Below, piece by piece: positions 3,389 through 56,155 of a stretch of 64,000 nt of DNA; the stretch's first letter is position 1, and each line of letters starts with the position of its first letter. Under the pieces are notes generated by a model. That model did no database searches, was not told the origin of the DNA, and was given only the letters and a program-made list of their open reading frames with translations. Source of the stretch: Rathayibacter sp. VKM Ac-2857 (GTDB lineage: Bacteria; Actinomycetota; Actinomycetes; Actinomycetales; Microbacteriaceae); NCBI RefSeq assembly GCF_013205025.1, contig NZ_JABMLE010000001.1:868001-932000 (forward strand), written 5' to 3'. The position numbers and the translations under genes are program-made.

Positions 3389-4195
3389 GTGGAAATGCCG
3401 ACCTACCTCCTCGTCCTCTGGCGCTGCAAGCTCCTCGTCGTCGCGAGCGCAATCCTCGCGGTGATCGTCGCCACCGCCGTGCACTTCACCGTCACCGACG
3501 AGGGGCTCACCCTCCGCGGCGACCGCGAGCACAGCGCCGCCGTGACCGTGCTGCTCGGCGGCGGTCCGAAGAACCCCTACGCCGCGCAGATCCCCGGGGT
3601 CGAGCGCGTCCCCGGCGTCGAGGACGACCAGTTCAACGACCTCAGCAACACGGCGGTGATCTACGCCTACCTCGCCAGCGGCGAGGAGGTGCGCGCCGCC
3701 GTCACCGCGCAGGCCGGTCCGCTCGAGGAGGGCGACGGCGTCGGCGCCGTCCGCCGCACCACCCAGCCGCGCGGCGACGAGTCGAACGGCGGGCGCTTCA
3801 CCCTGCCCTTCCTCTCGGTGATCGGCTCCTCGTTCGACCCCGCCCGCGCCGTCGAGCTCTCCCGCACCGCGACGACGGCCCTCCTCGACCGGATCGCGCA
3901 GGAGCAGGACGCGCAGGGCATCCCGGAGTCGATCCGCGTCACCCTCACCGTCACCGACGAGGGCGACGCCGTCCCCGGCGCGCTCGGCACGGTCGCCATC
4001 CCGATCGCCGGGACCGGGCTGGCCGTCTTCGCCGCGGCGCTCGTCGCGATCGTCCTCGGCCACCGGTTCCGCGTCCGACGCGGACTCACCGCGCCCCTCC
4101 CCCGCCGCAGCGAGGCCGAGGACGACCTCCTCCTCGACGCCGAGATCGAGACCGCCCTCACCGCCGAGAGGCAGGACACCGTGTCCCGTCGCTGA
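3389..4195 (+). CDS. Wzz/YveK-like chain-length or capsule-type membrane protein
   Basis: A 268-residue protein with one transmembrane segment near each end: residues about 14-33 (LLVVASAILAVIVATAVHF) and about 205-228 (IAGTGLAVFAAALVAIVLG). The ~170-residue region between them would face outward. This two-helix layout with a large extracytoplasmic middle is that of Wzz/YveK chain-length determinants, which set polysaccharide length. No glycosyltransferase or polymerase gene lies nearby, and no tyrosine-kinase domain is fused. The start may be GTG at 3389 or ATG at 3395; neither has a strong ribosome-binding site. The family call is moderate because similarity outside the helices is weak. Confidence 0.5.
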   Translation: MEMPTYLLVLWRCKLLVVASAILAVIVATAVHFTVTDEGLTLRGDREHSAAVTVLLGGGPKNPYAAQIPGVERVPGVEDDQFNDLSNTAVIYAYLASGEEVRAAVTAQAGPLEEGDGVGAVRRTTQPRGDESNGGRFTLPFLSVIGSSFDPARAVELSRTATTALLDRIAQEQDAQGIPESIRVTLTVTDEGDAVPGALGTVAIPIAGTGLAVFAAALVAIVLGHRFRVRRGLTAPLPRRSEAEDDLLLDAEIETALTAERQDTVSRR

Positions 4196-4311
4196 CTACC
4201 TCCGAGCGCCTGGGAGGTCAACCCCGTTCGGGAAGGGCGCCCTCGGTCCTAGCGTGAGGACGCACGGTCGAGGCGATGGCCCCCCGAGCACGATGCACGC
4301 GAAAGAGCACC

Positions 4312-4530
4312 ATGACCCAGATCCCCATTCTTCAGCCCGCACGATGGAGTCGTAACGGAGTCCGGATCGTCGTCGTTCCCGGGGCGGAGCTGCCCCGCTT
4401 CCGACTCGAGATCGACCCCGGACGAGCCGTCCCGACCGGAGCCTTCACCGGCCCCTTCTCGACCGTCGAGGAGGCCGAGCGCGCCGCCGAGGCGCTCACC
4501 TCGGCCGCGGACCGCCGGCTCTCGGCCTGA
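4312..4530 (+). CDS. Small hypothetical protein, 72 residues
   Basis: A short soluble ORF starting at ATG 4312, with GAAAGAG nearby as a possible ribosome-binding site. It contains an aromatic/basic stretch (ARWSRNGVRIVVVPG) and ends in an amphipathic helix with EEAERAAEALTSAADRRLS. No signal peptide, cysteine pair or known motif is visible. It is convergent with the DUF429 gene, whose stop is 4 bp away. Codon use matches its neighbours, so I regard it as real but of unknown function. Confidence 0.5.
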   Translation: MTQIPILQPARWSRNGVRIVVVPGAELPRFRLEIDPGRAVPTGAFTGPFSTVEEAERAAEALTSAADRRLSA

Positions 4531-4534
4531 CGCG

Positions 4535-5275
4535 TCAGCCGGCGAGCTCGTCCAGCCGGCAGGTCGGCAGGGCGATCCAGCCCTCGGCGAGGGCGGCCTC
4601 CCGGAGCTCCTCCGGCACCGGCACCGTCCGCCCGAGGGCGTGCGCGCGGGCGTTGAGCGCCGCGATCACCGCGTCGAACGCGTCGTTCGAGTGCGCCATC
4701 AGTGCGGCCGCGTCCGCCGGCAGCACCAGCCACGGCGCCGCCCGGAGTAGCGCCTCGACGGCGAGCGCCACCGCCTCGGGCCGCGTCTTGTAGCCCGTGG
4801 TGTCCACGCCCCAGAGCCGGAGCGCGGCGGCGGGGTACGCCTCGACCAGCCGTCCTCCGCCCGAGCGGTCGACCTCCTCGCCCGCCGCCGCGAAGGCGTC
4901 CAGCAGCTCGGCGCAGCGCATCGCCGTCATGCCGAGCCGGTCGGTCGACACGCTCAGCGGCCACCGCCCCGTCACCTCGCGCGCGGCGCGGTCGGTCTCC
5001 CGGTAGGCGAGCCGCCGCCGCCAGTCGCGCCCGGCGAGCGACCGCGGCGCGATCTCGCGGCGGGTGTGCGCGGAGACGAACGCGGCGAACTCCAGCGGCC
5101 AGCCGAACGCGCAGTCGATGCCGATCGCCGTCGCCTCCCGCGACGCGGCGACGACGTCGTCGTCGGTGGCGCCGAGCACCAGCGAGCGGACGACCGCCTC
5201 GCCGCCGCCCCACTCCAGCGCGGCGACCGCCGTCCGCACCGGCTCCGCGGCCAGGTCGACACCGATCGTGAGCAT
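4535..5275 (-). CDS. DUF429 protein, predicted RNase H-like nuclease
   Basis: A 246-residue protein. The N-terminal strand M-L-T-I-G-V-D-L-A carries the first acidic residue typical of an RNase H fold, IGIDCAFGWP carries a second, and the C-terminal part has HSNDAFDAVIAALNARA with conserved acidic positions. These are the DUF429 hallmarks; the family is predicted to be RNase H-like and has no established substrate. It is divergent from the Pr6Pr gene and convergent with the small ORF at 4312. The ATG at 5273-5275 begins directly at the first beta strand. Confidence 0.75.
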   Translation of the reverse strand: MLTIGVDLAAEPVRTAVAALEWGGGEAVVRSLVLGATDDDVVAASREATAIGIDCAFGWPLEFAAFVSAHTRREIAPRSLAGRDWRRRLAYRETDRAAREVTGRWPLSVSTDRLGMTAMRCAELLDAFAAAGEEVDRSGGGRLVEAYPAAALRLWGVDTTGYKTRPEAVALAVEALLRAAPWLVLPADAAALMAHSNDAFDAVIAALNARAHALGRTVPVPEELREAALAEGWIALPTCRLDELAG

Positions 5276-5330
5276 CGGATCAGGCTACCCGCCGGGCGCG
5301 CCCCTCCCGTCGGCTCGCTACGCTCGTGCG

Positions 5331-5984
5331 ATGACGCCGATCTCCCCCGCACGAGGGACCCGCGCGCTGCGGATCCTCCTCGCCGTCCTGCGCATCGCGG
5401 TCGCCCTCACGGTGCTCGCCGCGGTCACCGCCACCGCGATCGACTCCGCCTCGCGCACGCCGCTGATCCCCGTCAACTTCTTCGGCTACTTCACGATCCA
5501 GGGCAACCTGCTGATGGCCGCGGTCCTCCTGATCACCGCCGCGCAGTCCCTGGCCGGCCGGGCGCAGAGCGGAACGATGGCGCTGGTCCGGGGGGCGACG
5601 ACGAGCTACATCATCGTCGTCGGCCTCGTCTACAACACGCTGCTCATCGGCCTCGCGGGCGGAGTGACGCTGCCGTGGGCCAACACCGTGATGCACCTGC
5701 TCTTCCCGGTCTACGGCCTCCTCGACTGGATCCTCTTCACCGACCGCCCGCCGCTGCCCTGGCGCCGCCTCTGGGTCGTCACGATCTACCCGGTGGTCTG
5801 GCTGGTCGTGGTGCTGATCCGCGGTGCGACCGACGGCTGGGTGCCCTACCCCTTCCTGAGCCCCGGCATCGGCTACGACCGGGTCGCGGTCTACGTCCTG
5901 GTCGTCGCCGCCGTCTTCGTCCTCTCGGGCGCCGTTGTTTGGGCGCTCAGCCGCCTGCAGGCCCCCCGCGCCCGGCGCGAGTGA
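5331..5984 (+). CDS. Pr6Pr-type integral membrane protein
   Basis: A 217-residue protein with about six hydrophobic helices (around residues 12-34, 45-66, 83-105, 112-132, 145-165 and 187-208). The motifs NFFGYFTIQGN and VMHLLFPVYGLLDW, with the aromatic/proline pattern of later helices, match the Pr6Pr family of six-helix actinobacterial membrane proteins. Their role is not established. The ATG at 5331 is preceded by TACGCT ending 6 nt upstream with no Shine-Dalgarno, suggesting a leaderless transcript. A 15-bp unit repeated twice follows the stop (5997-6028). Confidence 0.72.
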   Translation: MTPISPARGTRALRILLAVLRIAVALTVLAAVTATAIDSASRTPLIPVNFFGYFTIQGNLLMAAVLLITAAQSLAGRAQSGTMALVRGATTSYIIVVGLVYNTLLIGLAGGVTLPWANTVMHLLFPVYGLLDWILFTDRPPLPWRRLWVVTIYPVVWLVVVLIRGATDGWVPYPFLSPGIGYDRVAVYVLVVAAVFVLSGAVVWALSRLQAPRARRE

Positions 5985-6138
5985 ACCGGCCCGGGAGGAA
6001 CCCGACCGCGCGGAACCCGACCGCGCGGACCCGGCCCCGTTCTGGGGCCACGCGCGCAGGACCGCCGGTGACCCCGCAGGCCTAACGTCAGGATCGGCGG
6101 CCCCCACCGCCGTCCCCCGACCGAGAGCGGTTCCCCTC

Positions 6139-46303: not shown

Positions 46304-46794
46304 CCCTCCACAGTAGGCAGGGCCGCGCCCGGGGCCCGTGAGGCGCTCCGGTGCATGCCGATGTGGGCGATGCCCGCCTCGTCGAACTCGTCGCCGAACG
46401 CCTCGAAGCCCGACCGCGCGTACAGACCGGCGACGTACGTCTGCGCGTGGAGGAGGAGCGGCTCGTCCCCGTGCCGGTCGACCACGGCGCGGACGAGGCG
46501 ATGGGCGAGCCCCTCGCCCCGGCGGTCGGCGCGGGTCACCACCCGCCCGACGACCCGATGGGCGTCGCGGTGCTCGGGCTGCTGGTCCCAGAGCGTGCGG
46601 AGATAGGCGGCGACGCCGCGCTCGTCCGCGATCCACCAGTGCCGCGTCGTCGGCTCCAGGTCGCGGCCGTCGAGCTCCTCGTCGTCGACCCGCTGCTCGC
46701 GGAGGAAGACGTCGGTCCGCAGCCGCGCGACGCCGTAGACCTCCTCGGTCGTGAGTTCGCTCCACGCCTTCGAGATCACGGAATTCAGCTGCAC
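46300..46794 (-). CDS. GNAT family N-acetyltransferase (ElaA-like)
   Basis: A 164-residue acetyltransferase. LTTEEVYGVARLRTDVFLRE-type start (residues about 12-30) is the ElaA-family signature, VGRVVTRADRRGEGLAHRLV is the acetyl-CoA pyrophosphate loop (R/Q-x-x-G-x-G/A), and YARSGFEAFGDEFDEAGIAH with a following HIGM motif is the C-terminal family pattern. The start is GTG 46794. It overlaps DUF3263 by 4 bp. The acceptor substrate is unknown. Confidence 0.88.
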   Translation of the reverse strand: MQLNSVISKAWSELTTEEVYGVARLRTDVFLREQRVDDEELDGRDLEPTTRHWWIADERGVAAYLRTLWDQQPEHRDAHRVVGRVVTRADRRGEGLAHRLVRAVVDRHGDEPLLLHAQTYVAGLYARSGFEAFGDEFDEAGIAHIGMHRSASRAPGAALPTVEG

Positions 46795-46864
46795 GGCGGA
46801 GAGTTTACGAGAGCAGAGGGGAGGATCCTCCCCCGTACACTGACCAGGATTCCTAGGGAGACCC

Positions 46865-47272
46865 ATGTCGTCGTATTCCGTCAACAAGACCGACGCCGAG
46901 TGGCGCGAGGAGCTCGACCGCGAGCAGTACTCCGTGCTGCGGCAGGCCGCCACCGAGCGCCCGTGGACCGGCGAGCTGCTCGACGAGCACCGCGAGGGGC
47001 TCTACACCTGTGCGGCGTGCCACGCCGAGCTGTTCAAGAGCGGCACCAAGTTCGACTCCGGCTGCGGCTGGCCGAGCTTCTACGAGTCCATCCGCCCCGA
47101 CGCGGTGGAGCTCATCGAGGACAGCACCCTCGGCATGGTCCGCACCGAGGTCCGCTGCGCCAACTGCGGCTCGCACCTGGGCCACGTCTTCCCCGACGGC
47201 TTCGGCACGCCGACCGGAGACCGGTACTGCATGAACTCGATCGCGATGAACTTCACGACCGAGGGCGAGTGA
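46865..47272 (+). CDS. msrB: Peptide methionine-(R)-S-oxide reductase MsrB
   Basis: A 135-residue enzyme. Zinc ligands are C49, C52, C98 and C101 (CAAC and CANC). The nucleophile is C122 in RYCMNS, and C67 in SGCGWPSF is the likely resolving residue. The His pair in GSHLGHVFPDG and the late N-F are also present. It reduces R-methionine sulfoxide in proteins with thioredoxin. GGGAGA precedes the ATG. The next gene overlaps by 4 bp (GTGA). Confidence 0.97.
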   Translation: MSSYSVNKTDAEWREELDREQYSVLRQAATERPWTGELLDEHREGLYTCAACHAELFKSGTKFDSGCGWPSFYESIRPDAVELIEDSTLGMVRTEVRCANCGSHLGHVFPDGFGTPTGDRYCMNSIAMNFTTEGE

Positions 47273-47826
47273 CCGTGTCCGCGACTCCCGTGCTCGAGGC
47301 CGTCCTGGCCCGACGCTCCCGCTCGAAGGTGACCGCGGAGGCGCCGGGGCACGAGGAGATCGCGGCGTACGTCTCGGCCGCCTCGCGGCTCGCGGACCAC
47401 AGCTCGCTCCGGCCCTGGCGGGTCATCGAGATCCGCGGGGCGGCGCGCGACCGCGTCGGGCGCAGCTTCGCGGCCGCGTCCGGAGAGAAGAAGGACGCGC
47501 GCAAGCACGTCGAGAAGACGCACCGCGCCTCCCTCCTCCTCGCGGTCGTCGTCAGCGTGAAGAAGTCCAAGGTGCCGGCCTGGGAGCAGGAGGCCGTCGC
47601 CTCGGGCGTCGCGCACCTGCTCAGCCTGCTGCTCGACGAGGCGGGCTGGGGCGTCTTCTGGCGCACCGGCTCGTACACGCGGGCGAAGGCGGTGCGGAAG
47701 GCGCACCGCCTCGAGAAGGGCGAGGAGCTCCTCGGCTGGCTCTACGTCGGCCGGCCCGACGGCAAGATCGGCGGGCCGAAGCGGCCGACGCCGGCCGAGC
47801 GGCATCTGAGCATCCTCGAGCCGTGA
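47269..47826 (+). CDS. Nitroreductase family protein
   Basis: A 185-residue flavoprotein-like protein. N-terminal VLEAVLARRSRSKVTAEAP is the nitroreductase start, ADHSSLRPWRVIEIRG is the P-loop-like FMN site, and LLDEAGWGVFWRTGSYT lies where the flavin ring binds. It ends LLGWLYVGRPDGKIGGPKRP, a family-typical close. It is translationally coupled to msrB (GTGA), suggesting a shared redox role. An alternative start is GTG 47275. Confidence 0.82.
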   Translation: MTVSATPVLEAVLARRSRSKVTAEAPGHEEIAAYVSAASRLADHSSLRPWRVIEIRGAARDRVGRSFAAASGEKKDARKHVEKTHRASLLLAVVVSVKKSKVPAWEQEAVASGVAHLLSLLLDEAGWGVFWRTGSYTRAKAVRKAHRLEKGEELLGWLYVGRPDGKIGGPKRPTPAERHLSILEP

Positions 47827-47833
47827 TCCCCCT

Positions 47834-47869
47834 GCGCGGGCCGGAGCCGGAGCGGCTCCCGGCCCCGCG
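47834..47869 (+). terminator. Terminator after msrB / nitroreductase
   Basis: A GC-rich stem around GGGCCGGAGCC and GGCTCCCGGCCC with small bulges, 8 bp past the stop and 29 bp before tRNA-Thr. Confidence 0.6.
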
Positions 47870-47898
47870 ATAGGGTGGCCCGGTGCGGCGACGCACCT

Positions 47899-47971
47899 GC
47901 CGACGTGGCGCAATTGGTAGCGCACCCGACTTGTAATCGGGCGGTTACGGGTTCAAGTCCCGTCGTCGGCT
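47899..47971 (+). tRNA. tRNA-Thr (anticodon UGU), island integration site
   Basis: A complete cloverleaf: acceptor GCCGACG with CGTCGGC, D arm GCGC/GCGC, anticodon loop CTTGTAA giving TGT, T arm with TTCAAGT. CCA is not encoded. Its last 34 nt are part of a 35-bp direct repeat that recurs at 53851-53885, so it served as the attachment site and remains whole. Confidence 0.95.
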
Positions 47972-47972
47972 C
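47938..47972 (+). repeat. attL: 3' end of tRNA-Thr
   Basis: Thirty-five bases starting CGGGCGGTTACGGG and ending GTCGGCTC are identical to 53851-53885. The repeat covers the end of the anticodon arm, the variable loop, the T arm and the acceptor strand. This is the classic core for tyrosine integrases that target tRNA genes. Confidence 0.93.
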
Positions 47973-47983
47973 AAATTGCCCGA

Positions 47984-48889
47984 TCAGACGGCCTTTTTGA
48001 GGACTGACTCTTCACTGACCGGCTCTCCAGTCACGAATAAGTCAGTTACATCCTGAGACAGTGCGTTGCTCAGTGCAGCTTCCATTGCCTTCGCGACCTC
48101 ATCGAGCCGGTCCGGGAACAGGTGGGCGTACGTACTCAGCGTCTCCTTGACGTCGGCGTGACCGAGCATCCGCGCGACCACCAGCACGTCGGCTCCTGAC
48201 TGGATCGCCAGGGACGCGCACGTGTGTCGGAGGGAGTGAGGGGTCAGCCCCTTCCCATCGAGTCCAGCGACGACGACGGCCTTGGAGAACACCCGGGGTC
48301 GCCAGTTGTGAGGGTCGAGTCGAGAGCCGCCCTTGGAGAGGAAGACGAACTCCTCCGACCCCCTCCCCTTCGTCAGTGCCTCTAGCTGACTCACCAGCGA
48401 GGAGGTGAGCGGTACCTCTCTTACGGACCCGTGCTTCGCCTCACCGATGATCCGGGTCCCGTCCCGGTCGATGGTGACCGTCGTCGCCAGCCGCGCCCTC
48501 TTCTTCGTATAGAGCAGATCACCGACCCGGAGTGCAGACGCCTCACCGATGCGGGCGCCGGTGAAAGCCAGGAAGTTGATGAGAACCCGGTCGTCAGGGT
48601 GACCGGCGACCTCCTCGGCGGCGTCGGCCAGACGCGCAACCTCCGAAAAGGTCAGCAGCTTCCCAAGGTGATCAGTCTTAGTCGCCCTCGGTAGCTCGAC
48701 GCCTTCGGTAAGGAGGACCGCAATCCACCCCGACGTCTTCGCATAGCGCATCGTCGCCCGGAAGGGGTTCCAGACGGCGGCCACGGTGGACGGTGCCAGC
48801 GGCATCGGCTTCATGTTCTCCACGACCGGCGCCGTACCCGCACGGAGTGCGCTGACCCAGCCACGAGCTGACTCGAAACCCTTTGGTGT
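47984..48889 (-). pseudogene. Tyrosine integrase, 5'-truncated
   Basis: The open frame covers 301 codons up to a TGA at 48890-48892 with no early start codon. The catalytic domain is complete: Arg in FTGARIGEASAL, H-x-x-R in PHSLRHTCASLAIQSG, His in RMLGHADVKETL and the Tyr in STYAHLF. The N-terminal remnant reads PKGFESARGWVSALRAGTAP, which belongs in the middle of a core-binding domain; roughly 80-90 residues that bind arm sites are missing. Translation could begin only at GTG or ATG near 48823-48835, giving a truncated protein. It ends 12 bp inside attL, the usual integrase position. Confidence 0.8.
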
Positions 48890-48905
48890 TCACGTACACA
48901 CCCGC

Positions 48906-48995
48906 ATGGCGTCCACGGTGGGTGACAGCTTCGTCCTAATGTCGCTTGCTGACTTCTCAAAGATCGCAGCGATTGTAGAAGGTGTTGGAAAGTGA
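48906..48995 (+). CDS. Short ORF, possible truncated gene 3' end
   Basis: Twenty-nine codons from ATG 48906 (M-A-S-T-V-G-D-S-F-V-L-M) to a TGA that overlaps the GTG of the next gene. The overlap suggests translational coupling. It has no ribosome-binding site and lies back to back with the truncated integrase, so it may be what is left of a gene whose start was deleted in the same event. Confidence 0.3.
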   Translation: MASTVGDSFVLMSLADFSKIAAIVEGVGK

Positions 48996-49486
48996 TAGCG
49001 CGTCTGCCCGGTGGAGCCCGCTCCTGGACCGTGCCTGAGGGCTCACAGGAGTACTACGACGAGGAGCGGGCCCGCCTCTATGTGTTGGAGCCGGATCAGA
49101 CGGTGAGAAGTTTCTCTTCTAGGGTCGAGTTCGCCGTACCGGCTGAGGTAGCTGATGATATTCGACAACAGCACTTTGGTTTCGTGGCACTTGCCGCGGA
49201 GACGGTACAGCCGGTGACACCCGCAGCAGCGCCGTTAGCAGCGCCGTACGAAATATTGAGCAAACCCGAGTATTTTAGGAAGCATCATCTAAGAGTATTG
49301 TTCTTCGGCAGCTACGAAAGAGCGATCCCATCCGGGAGCCGGTTTAAGATCACCCCTCGGGGCGTGGCCGTCGTGACGCCTCTCAACAGGGTTGGTCTGT
49401 ACGGTCCTCAGGGCAGGGTGCCGCTCACTGTGGGAGAGGAAGCTCTCCTGAAAGCTTCGGTGCCGCAGAGGATCAGGAGCCTATAG
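48992..49486 (+). CDS. Island hypothetical protein, 164 residues
   Basis: A 164-residue soluble protein from GTG 48992. The N-terminal part reads GSQEYYDEERARLYVLEPDQ, the middle is alanine/proline-rich (VQPVTPAAAPLAAPYE) and the C-terminal part is basic (KHHLRVLFFGSYERAIPSGS, FKITPRGVAVVTPLNRVGL). No cysteine, signal peptide or known domain is visible. It starts within the stop of a short ORF. A large inverted repeat (49500-49558) follows its stop and could terminate it. Lower GC than the chromosome marks it as acquired. Confidence 0.55.
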   Translation: MIARLPGGARSWTVPEGSQEYYDEERARLYVLEPDQTVRSFSSRVEFAVPAEVADDIRQQHFGFVALAAETVQPVTPAAAPLAAPYEILSKPEYFRKHHLRVLFFGSYERAIPSGSRFKITPRGVAVVTPLNRVGLYGPQGRVPLTVGEEALLKASVPQRIRSL

Positions 49487-49499
49487 CCGGTGCTGCCGT

Positions 49500-49558
49500 G
49501 TGCTCCGCCCTACCCATTTTATTGTGGGCTAATGGCCTCTAACCTCAGGGCGGAGCAC
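49500..49558. repeat. Large inverted repeat after island gene
   Basis: A perfect 12-bp pair (GTGCTCCGCCCT at 49500-49511 with 49547-49558) encloses 35 bp that can pair partly. It begins 14 bp past the stop of the gene at 48992, so it may be a terminator; it also borders the region of recombinase sites. Confidence 0.65.
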
Positions 49559-49620
49559 TCGGGGGTACCGGACCCTAGGCGGTCCAGTCCGTTTTGGCCT
49601 TCGGGCAGGACCGCCACCCC

Positions 49621-49767
49621 TGTTCTCAGAAACCATGGTTTCGTGAAAAGTTTTTGACGGAGCCGCCGACGACCTCGGACACCCCCGACAGGGTTCTCAG
49701 AACTCGATTCCGAAACCTCGCGTCGGGTGCGGGTCAAAGCTTGTTCTGAGAGACGGGTTTTGATAAT
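49621..49767. promoter_or_regulatory. Candidate res/crossover site for the serine recombinase
   Basis: Three related segments lie ahead of the recombinase. Site I (49623-49648) has TTCTCAG then the perfect 12-bp palindrome AAACCATGGTTT with a central AT, close to invertase crossover sites of the hix/cix type (TTCTC..AAACC..GGTTT). Site II (around 49693-49718) has TTCTCAGAA and GAAACC. Site III (49742-49767) ends GGGTTTTGATAA, like a hix right half. Three sites in about 146 bp upstream of the gene is the layout of Tn3-type res. Confidence 0.55.
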
Positions 49768-49775
49768 CTGAGGCC

Positions 49776-50342
49776 ATGGGATCAGTCATCGGGTACGCAA
49801 GAGTCAGCACATCGGACCAGAACGCGCAGATGCAGGTTGACGCGCTCGAAGCAGCGGGAGCGACGCGCATTTATGTCGATCAGGGCGTCAGCGGCATGAA
49901 GGCCAGCCGACCTGAGCTTGACCTCGCACTGGACCGATTGAAGAAGGGTGACGTACTCCTCGTATGGCGGCTGGACCGTCTCGGGCGCGGCACTGTGAAC
50001 ACCCTGACCCTGATCGATTCACTCATCGCAAAGGGGGTGGGGTTCCGCTCGATCACTGAGGGACTCGACTCGACTACGCCGACAGGGAAGGCAATGCTCG
50101 GCATGGTCAGCATCTTCGCTGAGTTGGAGCGAGAGACGATCCGTGAGCGGACCTCGGCAGGACTGGCGGCAGCGAAGGCGCAGGGTCGCACCGGTGGCCG
50201 TCCTCGCGCACTCGATAACAAGAAGATCAAGCTTGCTCAGCACATGTACGACAGCGGCGAACACACGAAATCTGAGATTGCGTCCACTCTGGGCGTCGGC
50301 GTAGCCACCGTCTACCGCTACTTGGGAGCCGCTAAGAAGTAG
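49776..50342 (+). CDS. Serine recombinase (resolvase/invertase type)
   Basis: A 188-residue enzyme. The catalytic domain has YARVSTSDQNAQ with nucleophile S11, LVWRLDRLGRG with the active-site arginines, and STTPTGKAMLGMVSIFAELE. The E helix ERETIRERTSAGLAAAKAQG leads to a C-terminal helix-turn-helix (KSEIASTLGVGVATVYRYL). The length equals Hin/Tn3 resolvases. It should cut at a dinucleotide within two sites and exchange strands as a tetramer. Putative binding sites lie directly upstream, so it probably controls its own transcription. It may resolve island multimers or rearrange cargo. Confidence 0.93.
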   Translation: MGSVIGYARVSTSDQNAQMQVDALEAAGATRIYVDQGVSGMKASRPELDLALDRLKKGDVLLVWRLDRLGRGTVNTLTLIDSLIAKGVGFRSITEGLDSTTPTGKAMLGMVSIFAELERETIRERTSAGLAAAKAQGRTGGRPRALDNKKIKLAQHMYDSGEHTKSEIASTLGVGVATVYRYLGAAKK

Positions 50343-50411
50343 CTGCATCCCGGGGTGTCGCACCAGTGGTCCGACTAAAAGCCCCGGTCAGAGCCCATTT
50401 ACACCTCCGTC

Positions 50412-51017
50412 TCAGTTCCAGCCCAATAAATAGGTGACATAGGCGACGAACAAGGCACCGACGATGCCCGCGGCCCATCCAAGTGAACCCTTCCACCAGA
50501 CCTTTTTCTCCGTAACTAGGGTTTGAGGAGTACTAGGAGCGGTTTCAGGTGCGGCTTGTATCGGACCGATAACCGCTGGCGTTGCCAGTCCGGTATCTAG
50601 ATTAGCTCGACCGGTTTTAATTTTCTCCACTAGTGAGCGAACTATCTCAGCAGCGCCTTGTACCTGAATCCTATTAGTGCCAGAAATATTTACGTCGAAG
50701 TTTGATACTGTTTTCACCGTTGGCCAATAGTTTATCGAGGCGTAAAGGTCGAACTTGTCTTTCGGTGCAAAGACACTTACGGAATAGTTGGAGGGTTCAA
50801 GATCGTGCTCGTGAACGGCGTCTCTAATCTCGGAAAGTGTCTTCCTTGTTAGATTGGCAGAGTCTCCGGAAAGCTTAATTCCATTATCTTTACTTGATCC
50901 GACAAGGCTCTCGAATTCCTTGGTTAATCTGTTTCTCAGATATTCGAGAGCAGCCAATCCGTCAATCTGCGGATCGAGGGACTCTTCAACTTTGGCACCG
51001 AAGCGGTCGTCACTCAC
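50412..51017 (-). CDS. Island tail-anchored hypothetical protein
   Basis: A 201-residue protein with a C-terminal transmembrane helix (about 179-197, GWAAGIVGALFVAYVTYLL). The N-terminal part is acidic with a helical stretch ALEYLRNRLTKEFESLV, then a mixed alpha/beta region (NYSVSVFAPKDKFDLYASIN, NRIQVQGAAEIVRSLVEKIK) and a Pro/Thr-rich linker before the helix. Clearly low GC, with AAA, ATT and GAT codons unlike the host. I recognise no family. A cytoplasmic sensor on a membrane anchor is a common design in phage-defence effectors, but nothing here proves it. Confidence 0.6.
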   Translation of the reverse strand: MSDDRFGAKVEESLDPQIDGLAALEYLRNRLTKEFESLVGSSKDNGIKLSGDSANLTRKTLSEIRDAVHEHDLEPSNYSVSVFAPKDKFDLYASINYWPTVKTVSNFDVNISGTNRIQVQGAAEIVRSLVEKIKTGRANLDTGLATPAVIGPIQAAPETAPSTPQTLVTEKKVWWKGSLGWAAGIVGALFVAYVTYLLGWN

Positions 51018-51123
51018 GGGTTGGGCTCCACTCTCGATCCGGGCTCACCTTTGAAAGTTACAGCACCACGGTCCCGCCTCCAACTTGGGGAACGTCCCCG
51101 CCGCTCGTCATCCCCGCCCGATG

Positions 51124-51471
51124 CTAGTGCTGCCCTGCCGGACGGCTGCGGACGACAATGGCTACGACGACTTCGATGCGGTCGCCGGATAGGGAAACCA
51201 GCTTCGCGTCACGCTCAAAGCGTGCGATCCAGCCGCCGTCCGGCCTTCGGTTCAGGTAGCCAACTCGGTTCATGAGTGGAAAGCGGGCTCCGTCTTGCTC
51301 TGCTACGCCGTCAGTGTCAGGAGCAGTGTTGTGCATGACCCACTGGAAAGTTGAGAGCCTCTCAACGTAGACGAAGCGGTCGCCCGCAAGTTCAAGCACG
51401 AAGGCGGGCAGGGCGTGAAGGTCGTCCGGTGCATCTACGAAGCCGTCGTCGGCGTTGAGCTTGACCCTCAC
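51124..51471 (-). CDS. Island hypothetical protein, 115 residues
   Basis: A 115-residue soluble protein starting at GTG 51471, overlapping the upstream stop (GTGA). It has a beta-rich look: FVLELAGDRFVYVERLSTFQ, RFPLMNRVGYLNRRPDGGWI and RIEVVVAIVVRSR. It shares a theme of short beta strands with the 96-residue protein upstream, so the pair may form one assembly. No known domain. Confidence 0.5.
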   Translation of the reverse strand: MRVKLNADDGFVDAPDDLHALPAFVLELAGDRFVYVERLSTFQWVMHNTAPDTDGVAEQDGARFPLMNRVGYLNRRPDGGWIARFERDAKLVSLSGDRIEVVVAIVVRSRPAGQH

Positions 51472-51758
51472 GCGACACCATCTAGCACCCGGATTGCTTC
51501 ATCAAAGGTACGCACCTGGCGACCGAGCCCCCTACCCACCGTGACAGGCGAAAAGCTGTAAAAGGTGCTCGCGTCGGCCGCGTCGATGAGCCCCATTGAC
51601 CGCATCGGGCCACCCCCCTGCACTGAAACGTCGTAGTACCGGCCGCGAGCGATCCGGCGCCCCTCGTAAGTTGAGTCGGCGTAGGCGCTCACGTACACGA
51701 TGCTGCCGCCCACGTCGAGCGTAACGGTGCCCTGCCGGTCTACCTCGCGTGGAGACAT
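51468..51758 (-). CDS. Island hypothetical protein, 96 residues
   Basis: A 96-residue protein starting at ATG 51758 with a GAGGG nearby. It has a beta-rich core (GTVTLDVGGSIVYVSAYADS, RYYDVSVQGGG, FYSFSPVTVGRGLGRQVRTF) and a short C-terminal helix DEAIRVLDG. Coupled to the next gene by a 4-bp overlap. A longer in-frame start at 51854 would overlap the DUF2971 gene and is less likely. I recognise no family. Confidence 0.45.
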   Translation of the reverse strand: MSPREVDRQGTVTLDVGGSIVYVSAYADSTYEGRRIARGRYYDVSVQGGGPMRSMGLIDAADASTFYSFSPVTVGRGLGRQVRTFDEAIRVLDGVA

Positions 51759-51834
51759 ACCCTCATTCTGCCCTACACATCCGACAGCGAGAAGGCAGCT
51801 CGTCGCAGCCCTTTGCTGGAACCGTTTTGAATAA

Positions 51835-52593
51835 CTAATACATGGGGTTGGCATTCAAGTCCGACTGTCGGACCTCAATATCCGGATAGTATATAGAAGT
51901 CACATCTCTAATGACTTTCGCCTCCCACTCCGGGGCGTCAGGCGATACGAAGACTGCTTCAATGAGTTCGAGTACGTCGACCGGCTCTCGCAGGCTCGCG
52001 GGCGGATTGTCGATATTGACTATTTGCCCGGTCACTGGGTCCAATTCTTGTTCCGCACCGGGAAACCAAGCAGCAATGAGCCGATATTCACGTTCGTATG
52101 AAAAGCTTTCACGCTTGTACACCAGGGGAATAAATATAATATCGCCAGGTATATGCAACGCTGAGTAGTCGGCGTATTGCACTACTGCGGCAGCGAGTAC
52201 GGCGGACGGTTCCCCGCGCAGGGCCGATTTGAGCCTTCCAGCCGTAGTGCGGATTGCCACGCCCTTACCTGCGGCGCCGTAGAGTCTCCACATCGCATAC
52301 GACTCACCCAAACCCCTGTACCAACAGTTTAGGTAGAAATGCTCTCGAACGAATCTCGCCCACCGCTCTGCTGATGAGCCTAGAGGAACATTATGCTCTG
52401 CAAAAAGTTCTGCACGCAAGCTTATATTAATAGCGCCATTTGAGCCTTCCCAGGGGTCTTCCATCTTGTCGGCCCTTGCAAAATACAATTCGCCCGTCTG
52501 CAGCAGGTCCAGATAACGGAATAGATCAACATATCGCCAGAGAACTACGTCGTCCTCTAGGTCATCAATGTCAGGTCGGTTCTCGAACCTCAC
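51835..52593 (-). CDS. DUF2971 protein
   Basis: A 252-residue soluble protein. The DUF2971 pattern is clear: LWRYVDLFRYLDLLQTGELY, FARADKMEDPWEGSNG, CWYRGLGESYAMWRLYG, GVAIRTTAGRLKSAL and FSYEREYRLIAAWF. Members are widespread on mobile elements and near defence genes; their activity is not established. Start GTG 52593. Codon use and AT content match the island. It heads a minus-strand run with the two small proteins downstream. Confidence 0.8.
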   Translation of the reverse strand: MRFENRPDIDDLEDDVVLWRYVDLFRYLDLLQTGELYFARADKMEDPWEGSNGAINISLRAELFAEHNVPLGSSAERWARFVREHFYLNCWYRGLGESYAMWRLYGAAGKGVAIRTTAGRLKSALRGEPSAVLAAAVVQYADYSALHIPGDIIFIPLVYKRESFSYEREYRLIAAWFPGAEQELDPVTGQIVNIDNPPASLREPVDVLELIEAVFVSPDAPEWEAKVIRDVTSIYYPDIEVRQSDLNANPMY

Positions 52594-52800
52594 GCCAGTC
52601 GTCCCGGCGTCACTCCAGCAAGACGGTTGTTAATGCTTAAGTTGTCAACTTCACTCATGCGCTAATCTTAGCGGGCTTAAAACCCCAGATCAGCCTATTT
52701 TTCGCTTTTGTGAGTTTAGAGCATTCTTCGGTTCGGCCGTTCCGCAACGCAGTCAAGTGTCATTGAGAGAATCACATCTTGTCAGCGGCTTCGTCGACCT

Positions 52801-52854
52801 GCTGTCACCGCGAATCGAGAAGGAGCCGCTGTCACCGCGAATCGAGAAGGAGCC
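52801..52854. repeat. Tandem 27-bp repeat at the stop of an island gene
   Basis: A 27-bp unit occurs twice end to end (52801-52827 and 52828-52854). It includes the last codons and TGA stop of the gene at 52832-53653, so a second copy of the C-terminal codons and stop follows the real stop. It indicates recent slippage. Confidence 0.85.
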
Positions 52855-53653
52855 GCTGCGCCCGCGATCGCCAGTAAGTAACCTTGGTGGGTAGTGCCTC
52901 CGCTTGAAGTCCGCCTACTCTGACAGAAAGCTTTCTCTCGCCAAAGGTTAGTACGTCCACAGCGCTTCCGGTTACCACCACTTCCGTCGACAGGTCGACG
53001 TCGGCGTCGTTGGGCCCAACGTAGCTGAAAACAATTCTTGCGGACTGCTCAGAGACGCCAGCCTCTCTTAATTCCATCCATTCTGCCACCGAGTGCACAA
53101 TGAGCACGCTCACCTTCTTCTCGCCGAGAGCGGGCAAACTTAGATGTTTCGGCATCCAGTTACTGAGCGGACCAAAATCGTCTGAGAGGTTTGCATGACC
53201 TTCATTGACTGCGTGGGAACAGCGAAGTGTGACCGCAGGACCGTAGTTGGTGAGGGTCAGGCAGACAACCTTTGCAAGTAGGAAATGGTTATCCTGCGGC
53301 GACTCAATGGGGAAAAAATCAGCTATCGCCCACGCCTGAGGCGCGAAGGGCTGTGAGGTTCGAATCTTTGCAAGAGGCACTCCCCCGGTGTCGATGAGAG
53401 TACGCATATCAACACCAGCGACCACAACCTCGTAACGAGGAGCGCGGGCGTCGAGCCGTACCCTCACACTCTCGTCTAGAGCCCTCTGAGCCACCGTGAC
53501 GGCTGCTAACGATGCTCTCGCGGAGTCCTTCGTGTGCTTTGACTGGATGGCGATGATGACCGCGCTCGCAGCCGTCACGGCGGCGACCAAGAGAGTCGCC
53601 CCGAACGTCCAGTAGTCGAGCCAGTCGTTCACTACGTCTACGTCGAGAGCCAT
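52832..53653 (-). CDS. Island membrane-anchored hypothetical protein
   Basis: A 273-residue protein with an N-terminal transmembrane helix (about 17-37, FGATLLVAAVTAASAVIIAI), a short coiled-coil-like segment (KHTKDSARASLAAVTVAQRA), then about 210 residues of soluble, probably beta-rich domain (HFLLAKVVCLTLTNYGPAVT, KVSVLIVHSVAEWMELR, ARIVFSYVGPNDADVDLSTE). The layout is an anchor plus an immunoglobulin-like cytosolic or extracytosolic domain. No family recognised. It lies next to attR. Confidence 0.6.
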   Translation of the reverse strand: MALDVDVVNDWLDYWTFGATLLVAAVTAASAVIIAIQSKHTKDSARASLAAVTVAQRALDESVRVRLDARAPRYEVVVAGVDMRTLIDTGGVPLAKIRTSQPFAPQAWAIADFFPIESPQDNHFLLAKVVCLTLTNYGPAVTLRCSHAVNEGHANLSDDFGPLSNWMPKHLSLPALGEKKVSVLIVHSVAEWMELREAGVSEQSARIVFSYVGPNDADVDLSTEVVVTGSAVDVLTFGERKLSVRVGGLQAEALPTKVTYWRSRAQRLLLDSR

Positions 53654-53850
53654 GCGGCAACTGTAGAAGACACCTGCGGTCCGCCTGCGGCGAGCGCCGC
53701 CTCAGTCACGATTCAGTCAGTTGCACTCTGAAACGGAGTGACCTCCTCCGTGGTCGAGGCATGGCCAACGGCGGCCTGAAACCGAGTCTGATCTGCCTAT
53801 TTCTTGTTTCGAGGATCACACAACGTTTCGCGAAACGACGGTCTGCAGAA

Positions 53851-53885
53851 CGGGCGGTTACGGGTTCAAGTCCCGTCGTCGGCTC
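53851..53885 (+). repeat. attR: partial copy of tRNA-Thr
   Basis: An exact 35-bp copy of 47938-47972. The 5' half of the tRNA is absent, so it is not a gene. A 14-bp perfect palindrome CGTTTCGCGAAACG (53824-53837) lies 13 bp before it and may be an integrase or accessory-factor site. Confidence 0.93.
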
Positions 53886-53917
53886 CGAGGCGGCCTCGCG
53901 AGTGATCGATCCGCCGT

Positions 53918-55039
53918 TCACTCGGCGGCGGCACTGCTGCGCCGAGGCGGCAGTCCGGCGTACGGAAGGCCGCGCAGCCTCCGCGTGATCGGCCGCTCGA
54001 CGAAGCGGTGGATCAGGATCGCGGCGACGAGCGCGACGGCGATGGTGCCCGCGACGGAGAGCACTTCCGAGCGCAGGCCCACGACCGCCAGGGCGGCGGG
54101 CACGGCCGGCCCGACCAGGGGGTGGAAGAGGTACAGGCTGTAGGAGGCCTCACCCAGGGCGAGCAGCGGACGCCGGACGACGCGATCCGCGCCACGTCGC
54201 AGCGCCAGTCGCCGGACGAGCGGCTCGGCGAGGACCACCGCGACGAACGCGGCGGTGACGACCCCCTTCCGGAAGAGCGCGTCGCGCTGCCAGGAGATCC
54301 CCTCCGGGGTGAGGGCCGCGACGACGGTCACGGCGGCGGCGAGAGCCAGCGCGACGAGAAGGCCGCGACGCGCACGCGGGAGCCCGGTGATCCTCCCGAC
54401 AGCCATGCCGATCGCGAAGTACAGGACGATCGGGTCGAAGTAGACCGCCCAGGTCGGCCAGTCCTCGCCGGGGCGGAGGACATGGCCCGACGCGACGACG
54501 AGCACGACCGCCGACGCGAACACGAGGACGTTCCGCCGCAGGAGCAGCCCGAGGGCGAAGACCGCGTAGAAGGCCGCCTCGAAGGTGAGGGTCCACCCGA
54601 CGCCGAGGAGCGGCTCCACCGCGCCGTCGGGGTTCCGGGTGGGCAGGAAGAGGTACGACGCGACTCCTGACCACGGGGTGAGGGCGGCGTGCAGCACGGC
54701 GCCGGGCAGCAGGAGGATCGACGCGATCTTGAGGGTGGTGGCGATCCAGTACAGCGGGACGATCCGGACCACGCGGCGGACGGCGAAGTACCGCCAGCCG
54801 CCCTTCACCTCGAAGGGACCGGCGGTGACCGTCGTGACGAAGCCGGAGACGACGAAGAAGACGTCGACCCCCGCGCCGCCCCCGTCCCAGACGGCGATCG
54901 AGTCGTCGAGCCGCTCCTGCGCGTAGAAGGTGGCGTGCGTGACGACGACGAGGACGGCCGCGACGAAGCGCAGGGCCTGGACGCTCTCGAAGATCGGCGT
55001 CCGGGCGATCGTCGGCGCGACGATCGGTGGCGTGGTCAT
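53918..55039 (-). CDS. Acyltransferase 3 family membrane protein
   Basis: A 373-residue protein with about ten hydrophobic helices. The N-terminal motif is SVQALRFVAAVLVVVTHATF with catalytic H35, then FFVVSGFV, and YFAVRRVVRIVPLYWIAT is the conserved arginine loop of the acyltransferase-3 (AT3) family. It ends with ASYSLYLFHPLVGP and a basic tail. AT3 enzymes add acetyl or other acyl groups to exported sugars or lipids. The target is unknown. It lies immediately right of the island and is transcribed toward attR. Confidence 0.9.
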   Translation of the reverse strand: MTTPPIVAPTIARTPIFESVQALRFVAAVLVVVTHATFYAQERLDDSIAVWDGGGAGVDVFFVVSGFVTTVTAGPFEVKGGWRYFAVRRVVRIVPLYWIATTLKIASILLLPGAVLHAALTPWSGVASYLFLPTRNPDGAVEPLLGVGWTLTFEAAFYAVFALGLLLRRNVLVFASAVVLVVASGHVLRPGEDWPTWAVYFDPIVLYFAIGMAVGRITGLPRARRGLLVALALAAAVTVVAALTPEGISWQRDALFRKGVVTAAFVAVVLAEPLVRRLALRRGADRVVRRPLLALGEASYSLYLFHPLVGPAVPAALAVVGLRSEVLSVAGTIAVALVAAILIHRFVERPITRRLRGLPYAGLPPRRSSAAAE

Positions 55040-55187
55040 GGAGGCCCCCCGGTGAGATCGGGTGAGCCTACCCAGGACCGCGGAGGGCCGATGCGGAGGC
55101 GCGGAATCGCCTGTCGCGCGATCGCCCGAGGTCCTCGGCGGCGCTCCCTCCGGCGGCGACGGTGATCCGGTCGCCGGCTCCGCACGA

Positions 55188-55217
55188 CGAAGGGCCCCGG
55201 TCTCCCGGGGCCCTTCG
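55188..55217 (-). terminator. Terminator of the DsbA-like gene
   Basis: A perfect 13-bp stem (55188-55200 with 55205-55217) and TCTC loop, 33 bp past the stop on the minus strand. Confidence 0.85.
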
Positions 55218-55249
55218 CGTGTTCCGTCCCGTCTCAGCAGGCTCGCGGT

Positions 55250-56155
55250 CTAGCCCGCGGCGGGCGTCGGGGTCGGCGTGGCCGACGAGTAGGTGTCGGC
55301 GGCGGCCGAGAGCACGAACGAGCTGAAGGCGTCGGCGTCGGTGAGCGAGCCGGTGTAGGCCTCGCCGTTGACGAGGACCGTCGGGGTGCCGGAGACCGAG
55401 GCGACCTCGGTGCCGGGCAGCGGGCCGGAGGTCGCGCGCTCGGTGGCCGCCCGCACCCAGCTCACGAAGGACTGGTCGTCGATGCAGGTGTTCACGGCGG
55501 CGGTGTCCTCGACGCCCGCGTCCGCGGCGGCCTGCTTGAGCTCGTCGTCCGAGAGTCCGTCGGTGCCCTCGGCCGGCTGCTCGGCGAAGAGAGCGGCGTT
55601 GAAGTCGAAGAAGGAGTCCGGCGACCGGTCGGCGACGCACGCTGCGGCGTTGGCCGCGCGCTCCGAGTACTTGGTGCCGTTGGAGCGGGTGGTGAGGATC
55701 GCGATCGGGTGGATCTCGACGGTCGCGGCGCCGCTGGTGACCCACTCCTTGATCTGGTCGCCGTTGGTCTGCTCGAACTGGCCGCAGTAGGGGCAGAGGT
55801 AGTCGAGGTAGACGCGGATGTCGACGGTGCCCGTGGAGGTGTCGAGCACGCTCGGGGTGGGGCTGCCGTCCGCCGGGATCGCCGGGGTGGTCGAGGCGAC
55901 CAGGCCCTCGGTGACGAGGACGCCGTCGCTCGCCATGTTGGCGGGACCGGGGCCGGCCGGGCGGATGCTCGAGGTGACGGCGAAGACGACGACCGCGACG
56001 ATGGCGATCACCACGATCGCGAGACCGCCCTGCAGGGCGAAGCGGCTGACGCGATCGCGGCGCTTCTGCTGCTCGCGGAGTCGGCGGGCCTTCTCTCGCG
56101 CGGCCTCTCGACGCTGGTTCTTCGAGAGACGGTCGTTGGCTCCGCCGATGGTCAT
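55250..56155 (-). CDS. Membrane-anchored DsbA-like thiol oxidoreductase
   Basis: A 301-residue protein. A basic N-terminus of about 40 residues (REAAREKARRLREQQKRRD) precedes one transmembrane helix (about 42-62). The extracellular thioredoxin-fold domain has active site C121-P-Y-C124 in DYLCPYCGQF, a DsbA-type helical insert (about 160-225) and the cis-Pro loop VSGTPTVLVNGEAY. It ends in a Thr/Pro tail. It should form disulfides in exported proteins, or act as the DsbA-like oxidase of Actinobacteria. It is divergent from the ABC ATPase gene. Confidence 0.92.
   Translation of the reverse strand: MTIGGANDRLSKNQRREAAREKARRLREQQKRRDRVSRFALQGGLAIVVIAIVAVVVFAVTSSIRPAGPGPANMASDGVLVTEGLVASTTPAIPADGSPTPSVLDTSTGTVDIRVYLDYLCPYCGQFEQTNGDQIKEWVTSGAATVEIHPIAILTTRSNGTKYSERAANAAACVADRSPDSFFDFNAALFAEQPAEGTDGLSDDELKQAAADAGVEDTAAVNTCIDDQSFVSWVRAATERATSGPLPGTEVASVSGTPTVLVNGEAYTGSLTDADAFSSFVLSAAADTYSSATPTPTPAAG

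Follow-up and report, generated by a model that had tools for sequence, protein, structure and literature searches.

An integrative island in tRNA-Thr of Rathayibacter sp. VKM Ac-2857 and its DUF2971 protein, a listed defence candidate with a predicted ADP-ribosyltransferase fold

The window analysed here is a stretch of 64,000 nucleotides of Rathayibacter sp. VKM Ac-2857 (contig NZ_JABMLE010000001.1, positions 868,001 to 932,000) in which positions 47938..53885 are almost certainly a 5.9-kb integrative island inserted in tRNA-Thr(tgt). Among its eight genes, one codes for a DUF2971 protein whose structure model resembles ADP-ribosyltransferases (ART). The explanation that we favour, and that we hold to be rather probable as a whole, is that of a tRNA-Thr island with separately acquired cargo genes, among which the DUF2971 protein would be an ART-like stand-alone effector.

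The DUF2971 gene (51835..52593, minus strand, 252 amino acids) was already named as such in a preliminary description of the island made from the sequence alone. The assignment was recovered with Pfam PF11185 (E 1.3e-5, 26.9 bits for a cut-off of 22, but spanning only 25 residues), and the protein also matches the PADLOC profile PDC-S31 (E 5.3e-17). The idea of an ART was recorded before any structure model of the protein existed. The model subsequently obtained has a predicted local distance difference test score (pLDDT) of 90.7 and a predicted template modelling score (pTM) of 0.88, and 28 structures were listed as similar to it. Seven DarT and three Tpt1/KptA chains fill the first ten places; in the remaining 18, we take 16 to be ART toxins or ART-fold effectors, partly by their titles. 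The listed structure 8hte is presumably an ART as well and 4r0m is unrelated to ARTs. On the basis of this model, DUF2971 probably adopts an ART fold, the nearest structures being those of DarT and Tpt1.

The conserved positions were located in an alignment (A3) of the window protein with 72 relatives, taken from the 84 DUF2971 loci described below after four loci without an open reading frame (ORF) of 200-330 amino acids had been left aside and eight had been dropped by hand as near-duplicates or as short or long sequences. Twelve residues are common to the window protein and all 72 relatives. W91, S98, E167, E169 and R171 are each found in 73/73 sequences and R20 in 68/73, and R20, S98 and E167-x-E169 follow, as read from the alignment, the order of R-S-E, which is one of the catalytic triads of known ART clades besides H-Y-E and H-H-h. 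All 73 aligned members, window protein included, match PDC-S31.

The resemblance to DarT lies in the predicted fold and not in the sequence. No PDB entry was matched by sequence up to E 10, the DUF2971 profile showed no relation to DarT (0.3% with hhalign against seven DarTs), and the window protein does not match the DarT family PF14487, DUF2971 being its only Pfam match at E ≤ 1. In contrast to the DarT of the DarTG and DarT-NADAR systems, in which the first motif is H-x-T (seven DarTs), DUF2971 has R-Y at this place and no DarG macrodomain or NADAR antitoxin was matched by Pfam among the eight island proteins. The Tpt1/KptA RNA 2'-phosphotransferases differ by their clade motif, given as H-H-h in PMC9967889, whereas DUF2971 keeps R, S and E-x-E. 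The genome also has a separate gene of the DarT family (G000:C4:281956-282513, L176; PF14487, E 2.1e-20), which is unlinked to the island.

The gene cannot be called new, as a defence database already has DUF2971 among its candidates. In the literature searched, which left most subscription journals and preprints outside, no paper naming PDC-S31 or PF11185, no mechanism under DUF2971, and no ART reading under any of the three names was found; DUF2971 appears there in one paper, within a table of repaired frameshifts.

The distribution of DUF2971 was established with a four-sequence alignment scan, from which the best 80 of 89 loci of the genome collection and 4 viral loci were retained (84 in total); with a single sequence, no match was obtained in the viral contigs. 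The 84 loci come from bacteria, archaea and viral contigs, Subtercola boreus being among them, and the relatives in the family Microbacteriaceae include one in genome G214. DUF2971 was also found on 27 of 72,556 plasmid records, halophilic archaea included, and on 1 of 50,697 phage records (an Acinetobacter phage). Candidatus Poribacteria account for 19 of the best 80 of the 89 loci (L048-L127), two of them lying on one chromosome, OY282386.1 (L095 and L121).

The neighbourhoods of the 84 loci were inspected over flanks of up to 8 kb, the 4 viral loci and those near contig ends having shorter ones. No clear relative of any cargo partner of the island was detected near any of them (0/84; best stray match E 0.56). 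A crude longest-ORF rule gave 153 neighbour ORFs, of which 113, from 79 of the 84 loci, were kept; the other 40, most of them short and some from near-duplicate loci, were dropped manually. In these 113 proteins, with neighbours shorter than about 85 amino acids excluded from the Pfam family count, 116 Pfam families were recognised and the commonest one occurs in 3/113. Defence-like neighbours are limited to type III methyltransferases (2/113, PADLOC) and a type I restriction subunit (1/113, Pfam); a restriction-endonuclease-like gene, read from the sequence and not from a family search, adjoins the Paenarthrobacter copy. Because neighbour families never recur in more than three proteins and few defence genes adjoin, DUF2971 appears to be a solitary gene with a weak defence context at most. 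A predicted tRNA lies within the sequence stretch of 9 of the 57 loci scanned for it (57 of the 84), suggesting that tRNA islands are not the usual home of DUF2971. The window protein is therefore like PDC-S31 in matching its profile and in the lack of a conserved partner, PDC-S31 being a single-gene candidate; it differs in that its gene sits in a small tRNA-Thr island, and PDC-S31 itself remains only a candidate.

These results bear directly on the preliminary description, in which the minus-strand block 50412-53653 was proposed to be a single undescribed defence or interference unit made of a DUF2971 effector with tail-anchored and N-anchored membrane partners. The two anchors predicted there are borne out by hydropathy: the 201-residue protein (50412..51017) has its peak at residue 182 (mean 1.74 over 19 residues) and the 273-residue protein (52832..53653) at residue 18 (2.30). 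Between DUF2971 and the tail-anchored gene lie two orphans, of 96 residues (51468..51758; listed as 128 residues from 51854) and of 115 residues (51124..51471; no family above cut-off). All five genes share the minus strand, with an overlap of 4 bp between the 96- and 115-residue genes and a distance of 76 bp from the end of DUF2971 to the former, which would suit a multi-gene unit; however, gaps of 238 bp and 106 bp separate this group from the N-anchored and the tail-anchored genes, respectively, and the G+C content (GC) varies gene by gene, with 0.62-0.64 in the pair 51124-51758 for 0.49 and 0.52 in its neighbours.

The co-occurrence of the cargo genes was followed in 249 Microbacteriaceae genomes (the genome itself and 248 others). 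Matches were obtained in 2 other genomes for DUF2971, 4 for the N-anchored protein, 1 for the tail-anchored protein, 1 for the 96-residue protein and none for the 115-residue protein, and no genome among the 248 has relatives of two cargo genes. The plasmid set gave no relatives of the N-anchored, tail-anchored, 115-residue or 96-residue proteins, the viral contigs gave none of the N-anchored or tail-anchored protein, and a comparison of the DUF2971 profile with the N-anchored family showed no relation. Since the cargo genes do not co-occur elsewhere within what was searched, at the 84 DUF2971 loci or in the family genomes, which is one of the outcomes that the preliminary description had named as refuting it, the multi-gene unit was counted out. 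We regard it as largely refuted and hardly credible: the insertion in tRNA-Thr stands and DUF2971 is a listed phage-defence candidate, and what falls is its membership of one unit with the membrane proteins.

Several of the cargo relatives that were found lie in other surroundings that look mobile. The tail-anchored relative (L169:4369-4995, in genome G132) is inside an interruption of about 4 kb in the second copy of a dprA-like gene. One N-anchored relative (L168:4781-5581, in G081) is flanked on both sides by duplicated pieces of a cpaF-like gene (93-95% identity; region 3665-6097), another (L167:4934-5719, in G151) is about 150 bp from tRNA-Val, and the 96-residue relative (L166, in G203) is within 350 bp of tRNA-Lys; the dprA and cpaF labels come from reading the translations and not from family searches. 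No att-like flanking repeat pair was found around the relatives in L166 and L167, where it was sought. The cargo genes look like accessory genes moving independently between small islands and, because no co-occurrence was found, they would have been acquired separately and would not form one machine. In L169 (3100-8624), the two dprA-like genes are in tandem and about 74% alike, and the 4-kb stretch also holds an HNH-like protein, read from its translation.

The compact one-strand order of DUF2971, the 96-residue gene and the 115-residue gene, together with the predicted ART fold, could also be that of a toxin-antitoxin set, in which DUF2971 would be the ART-like toxin, with one of the two small proteins acting as antitoxin or chaperone to it, in the manner of ART-based systems. 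The 96-residue protein has a sub-threshold match (E 0.14, perhaps by chance) to a YbjN-type chaperone family. Against this, no conserved small neighbour accompanies DUF2971 elsewhere, in a family count from which the shortest neighbours were excluded as said above, the GC of the small pair is unlike that of DUF2971, the 96-residue relative in G203 has no DUF2971 within the 10.5 kb examined, and none of the eight island proteins matches a macrodomain or NADAR. We therefore consider a toxin-antitoxin set improbable.

The borders of the island, as given in the preliminary description, were confirmed. The last 35 bp (47938-47972) of tRNA-Thr(tgt) (47899..47972, plus strand) form the left repeat, on the attL side, and are repeated exactly (35/35, 100%) at 53851..53885 (plus strand, attR side), with 5913 bp from start to start. 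This pair is the longest exact direct repeat among those listed for 46500-55500, and an exact 35-bp match to a tRNA end far exceeds chance. The composition changes between the repeats: in 500-bp windows, GC is 0.47-0.64 wholly inside the island and 0.65-0.75 outside, and third-position GC (GC3) ranges over 0.48-0.78 among the eight island genes compared with 0.94-0.97 in three flank genes (msrB, acyltransferase and thioredoxin-like), a fourth one, read out of frame, having been excluded. The lower GC noted before thus holds for the island, but not evenly across the block 50412-53653, owing to the pair 51124-51758.

The same site was compared in the 14 other genomes of the genus over up to 1.5 kb downstream of the tRNA (about 180 bp only for G010). 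The tRNA is matched in 14/14 and the full left flank in 12/14 (84-96% identity), right-flank sequence of the window follows the tRNA in 10/14 (over 26 bp to more than 1 kb), and none of the genomes (0/14) showed, over that distance, any island sequence past the att repeat. In two of the 14 (G009 and G007), the joined flanks of the window align across the junction through one att copy with no insert, with 60-80 nt of diverged sequence directly after att, in agreement with the insertion that had been proposed. Genome G002 carries a different insert of 1.6 kb in this tRNA-Thr (L172 1258-2997), between copies of a 103-nt repeat that are 99% identical, which indicates that the site was used more than once. 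An ORF of that insert (L172 1592-2056, minus strand) codes for another protein, of 154 residues, with a hydrophobic N-terminus.

The gene adjoining the tRNA (47984..48823, minus strand) codes for a tyrosine integrase of 279 residues reduced to its C-terminal catalytic part (PF00589, 2.4e-27). Compared with relatives of 437 (L133) and 429 (L171) residues, with which it aligns from about their residue 170 at 47% and 42% identity, respectively, it is about 170 N-terminal residues short, as the truncation reported earlier implied. An in-frame TGA precedes the listed start by about 20 codons, and weak in-frame similarity runs for some tens of residues through this TGA and then stops. The conserved catalytic region is retained, with what we take to be its H-x-x-R, GH and Y motifs. 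What is left is nevertheless not the whole integrase expected for excision, its N-terminus being lost behind an upstream stop. With the N-terminal DNA-binding part gone, the island is probably no longer able to move by itself. The L171 relative directly adjoins tRNA-Thr(tgt) in its genome (G069), in agreement with an integrase family using this site; the L133 relative is near tRNA-Pro and not tRNA-Thr. Integrase relatives were found in 507 phage records, all below 60% identity.

The second recombinase, a serine recombinase of the resolvase/invertase type with a C-terminal helix-turn-helix (HTH) (49776..50342, plus strand, 188 residues; PF00239, 3.7e-46), had likewise been correctly named. By DNA comparison with plasmids, 44 records were matched, and all 20 matches listed fall inside this gene. 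Its weak matches to PADLOC mad1 (6.3e-4) and CARF3 (0.011) fall on the HTH end and were dismissed. The island resembles the tRNA-borne small islands with tyrosine integrases in its att repeats derived from the 3' end of the tRNA, its integrase adjoining the tRNA, its foreign composition and the empty sites in relatives; it differs by an integrase without its N-terminal part and by the serine recombinase also aboard. It is a further member of a common kind and, in itself, ordinary. Pfam gave no family above cut-off for five of the eight island proteins, the other three being the integrase, the serine recombinase and DUF2971. One of the five is an orphan of 164 residues (48992..49486, plus strand), for which a single weak partial match (27% over 74 residues) was obtained in the 248 other genomes. 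Between this gene and the serine recombinase is a 25-nt inverted repeat (49487-49571; 84%, arms 35 nt apart) that could be a terminator or a recombination site. At 52796-52849, a 27-nt tandem duplication (93%) has its second copy covering the stop codon of the N-anchored gene.

Given the decay of the integrase, the island as a whole may be decaying, with a cargo of inert passenger DNA and a DUF2971 gene that is useless to this host. The absence of the island at this site in the 14 congeners is compatible with this, as is the lack of any reported cargo match in the four congeners that were included in the DUF2971, N-anchored and tail-anchored searches. However, the DUF2971 frame is intact, its model is confident and 12 of its residues are shared with all 72 aligned relatives, and we consider inert passenger DNA unlikely.

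In the explanation that we favour, namely a tRNA-Thr island carrying separate cargo and an ART-like stand-alone effector, a tyrosine integrase would have inserted the element into the 3' end of tRNA-Thr(tgt), where the 35-bp att sequence restored the tRNA and a second copy was left at the far end. The integrase would later have lost its N-terminal DNA-binding part, leaving the island stuck. DUF2971, the only cargo gene with a readable function, would use NAD+ to ADP-ribosylate nucleic acid or protein upon phage infection, and this modification may stop the phage or the host, ending in abortive infection. That DUF2971 is such an NAD+-dependent stand-alone effector is put forward tentatively, on the strength of the predicted fold. 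The more far-reaching view that DUF2971 is an unrecognised and widespread family of stand-alone ARTs (in bacteria, archaea, plasmids and phages), combining a DarT-like fold with an R-S-E-type active site, lacking any dedicated antitoxin and acting as one-gene abortive-infection effectors that modify nucleic acid upon phage infection, seems to us rather doubtful in its full extent.

The present island illustrates that genes lying on one strand of a small island do not necessarily form a system. What is gained is a testable fold for DUF2971, a domain that has no more than candidate status in a defence database. Should it prove to be an ADP-ribosyltransferase, PDC-S31 would go from a name to a mechanism, and if the enzyme is indeed DarT-like and has no antitoxin paired with it, the question becomes how it is kept silent before infection.

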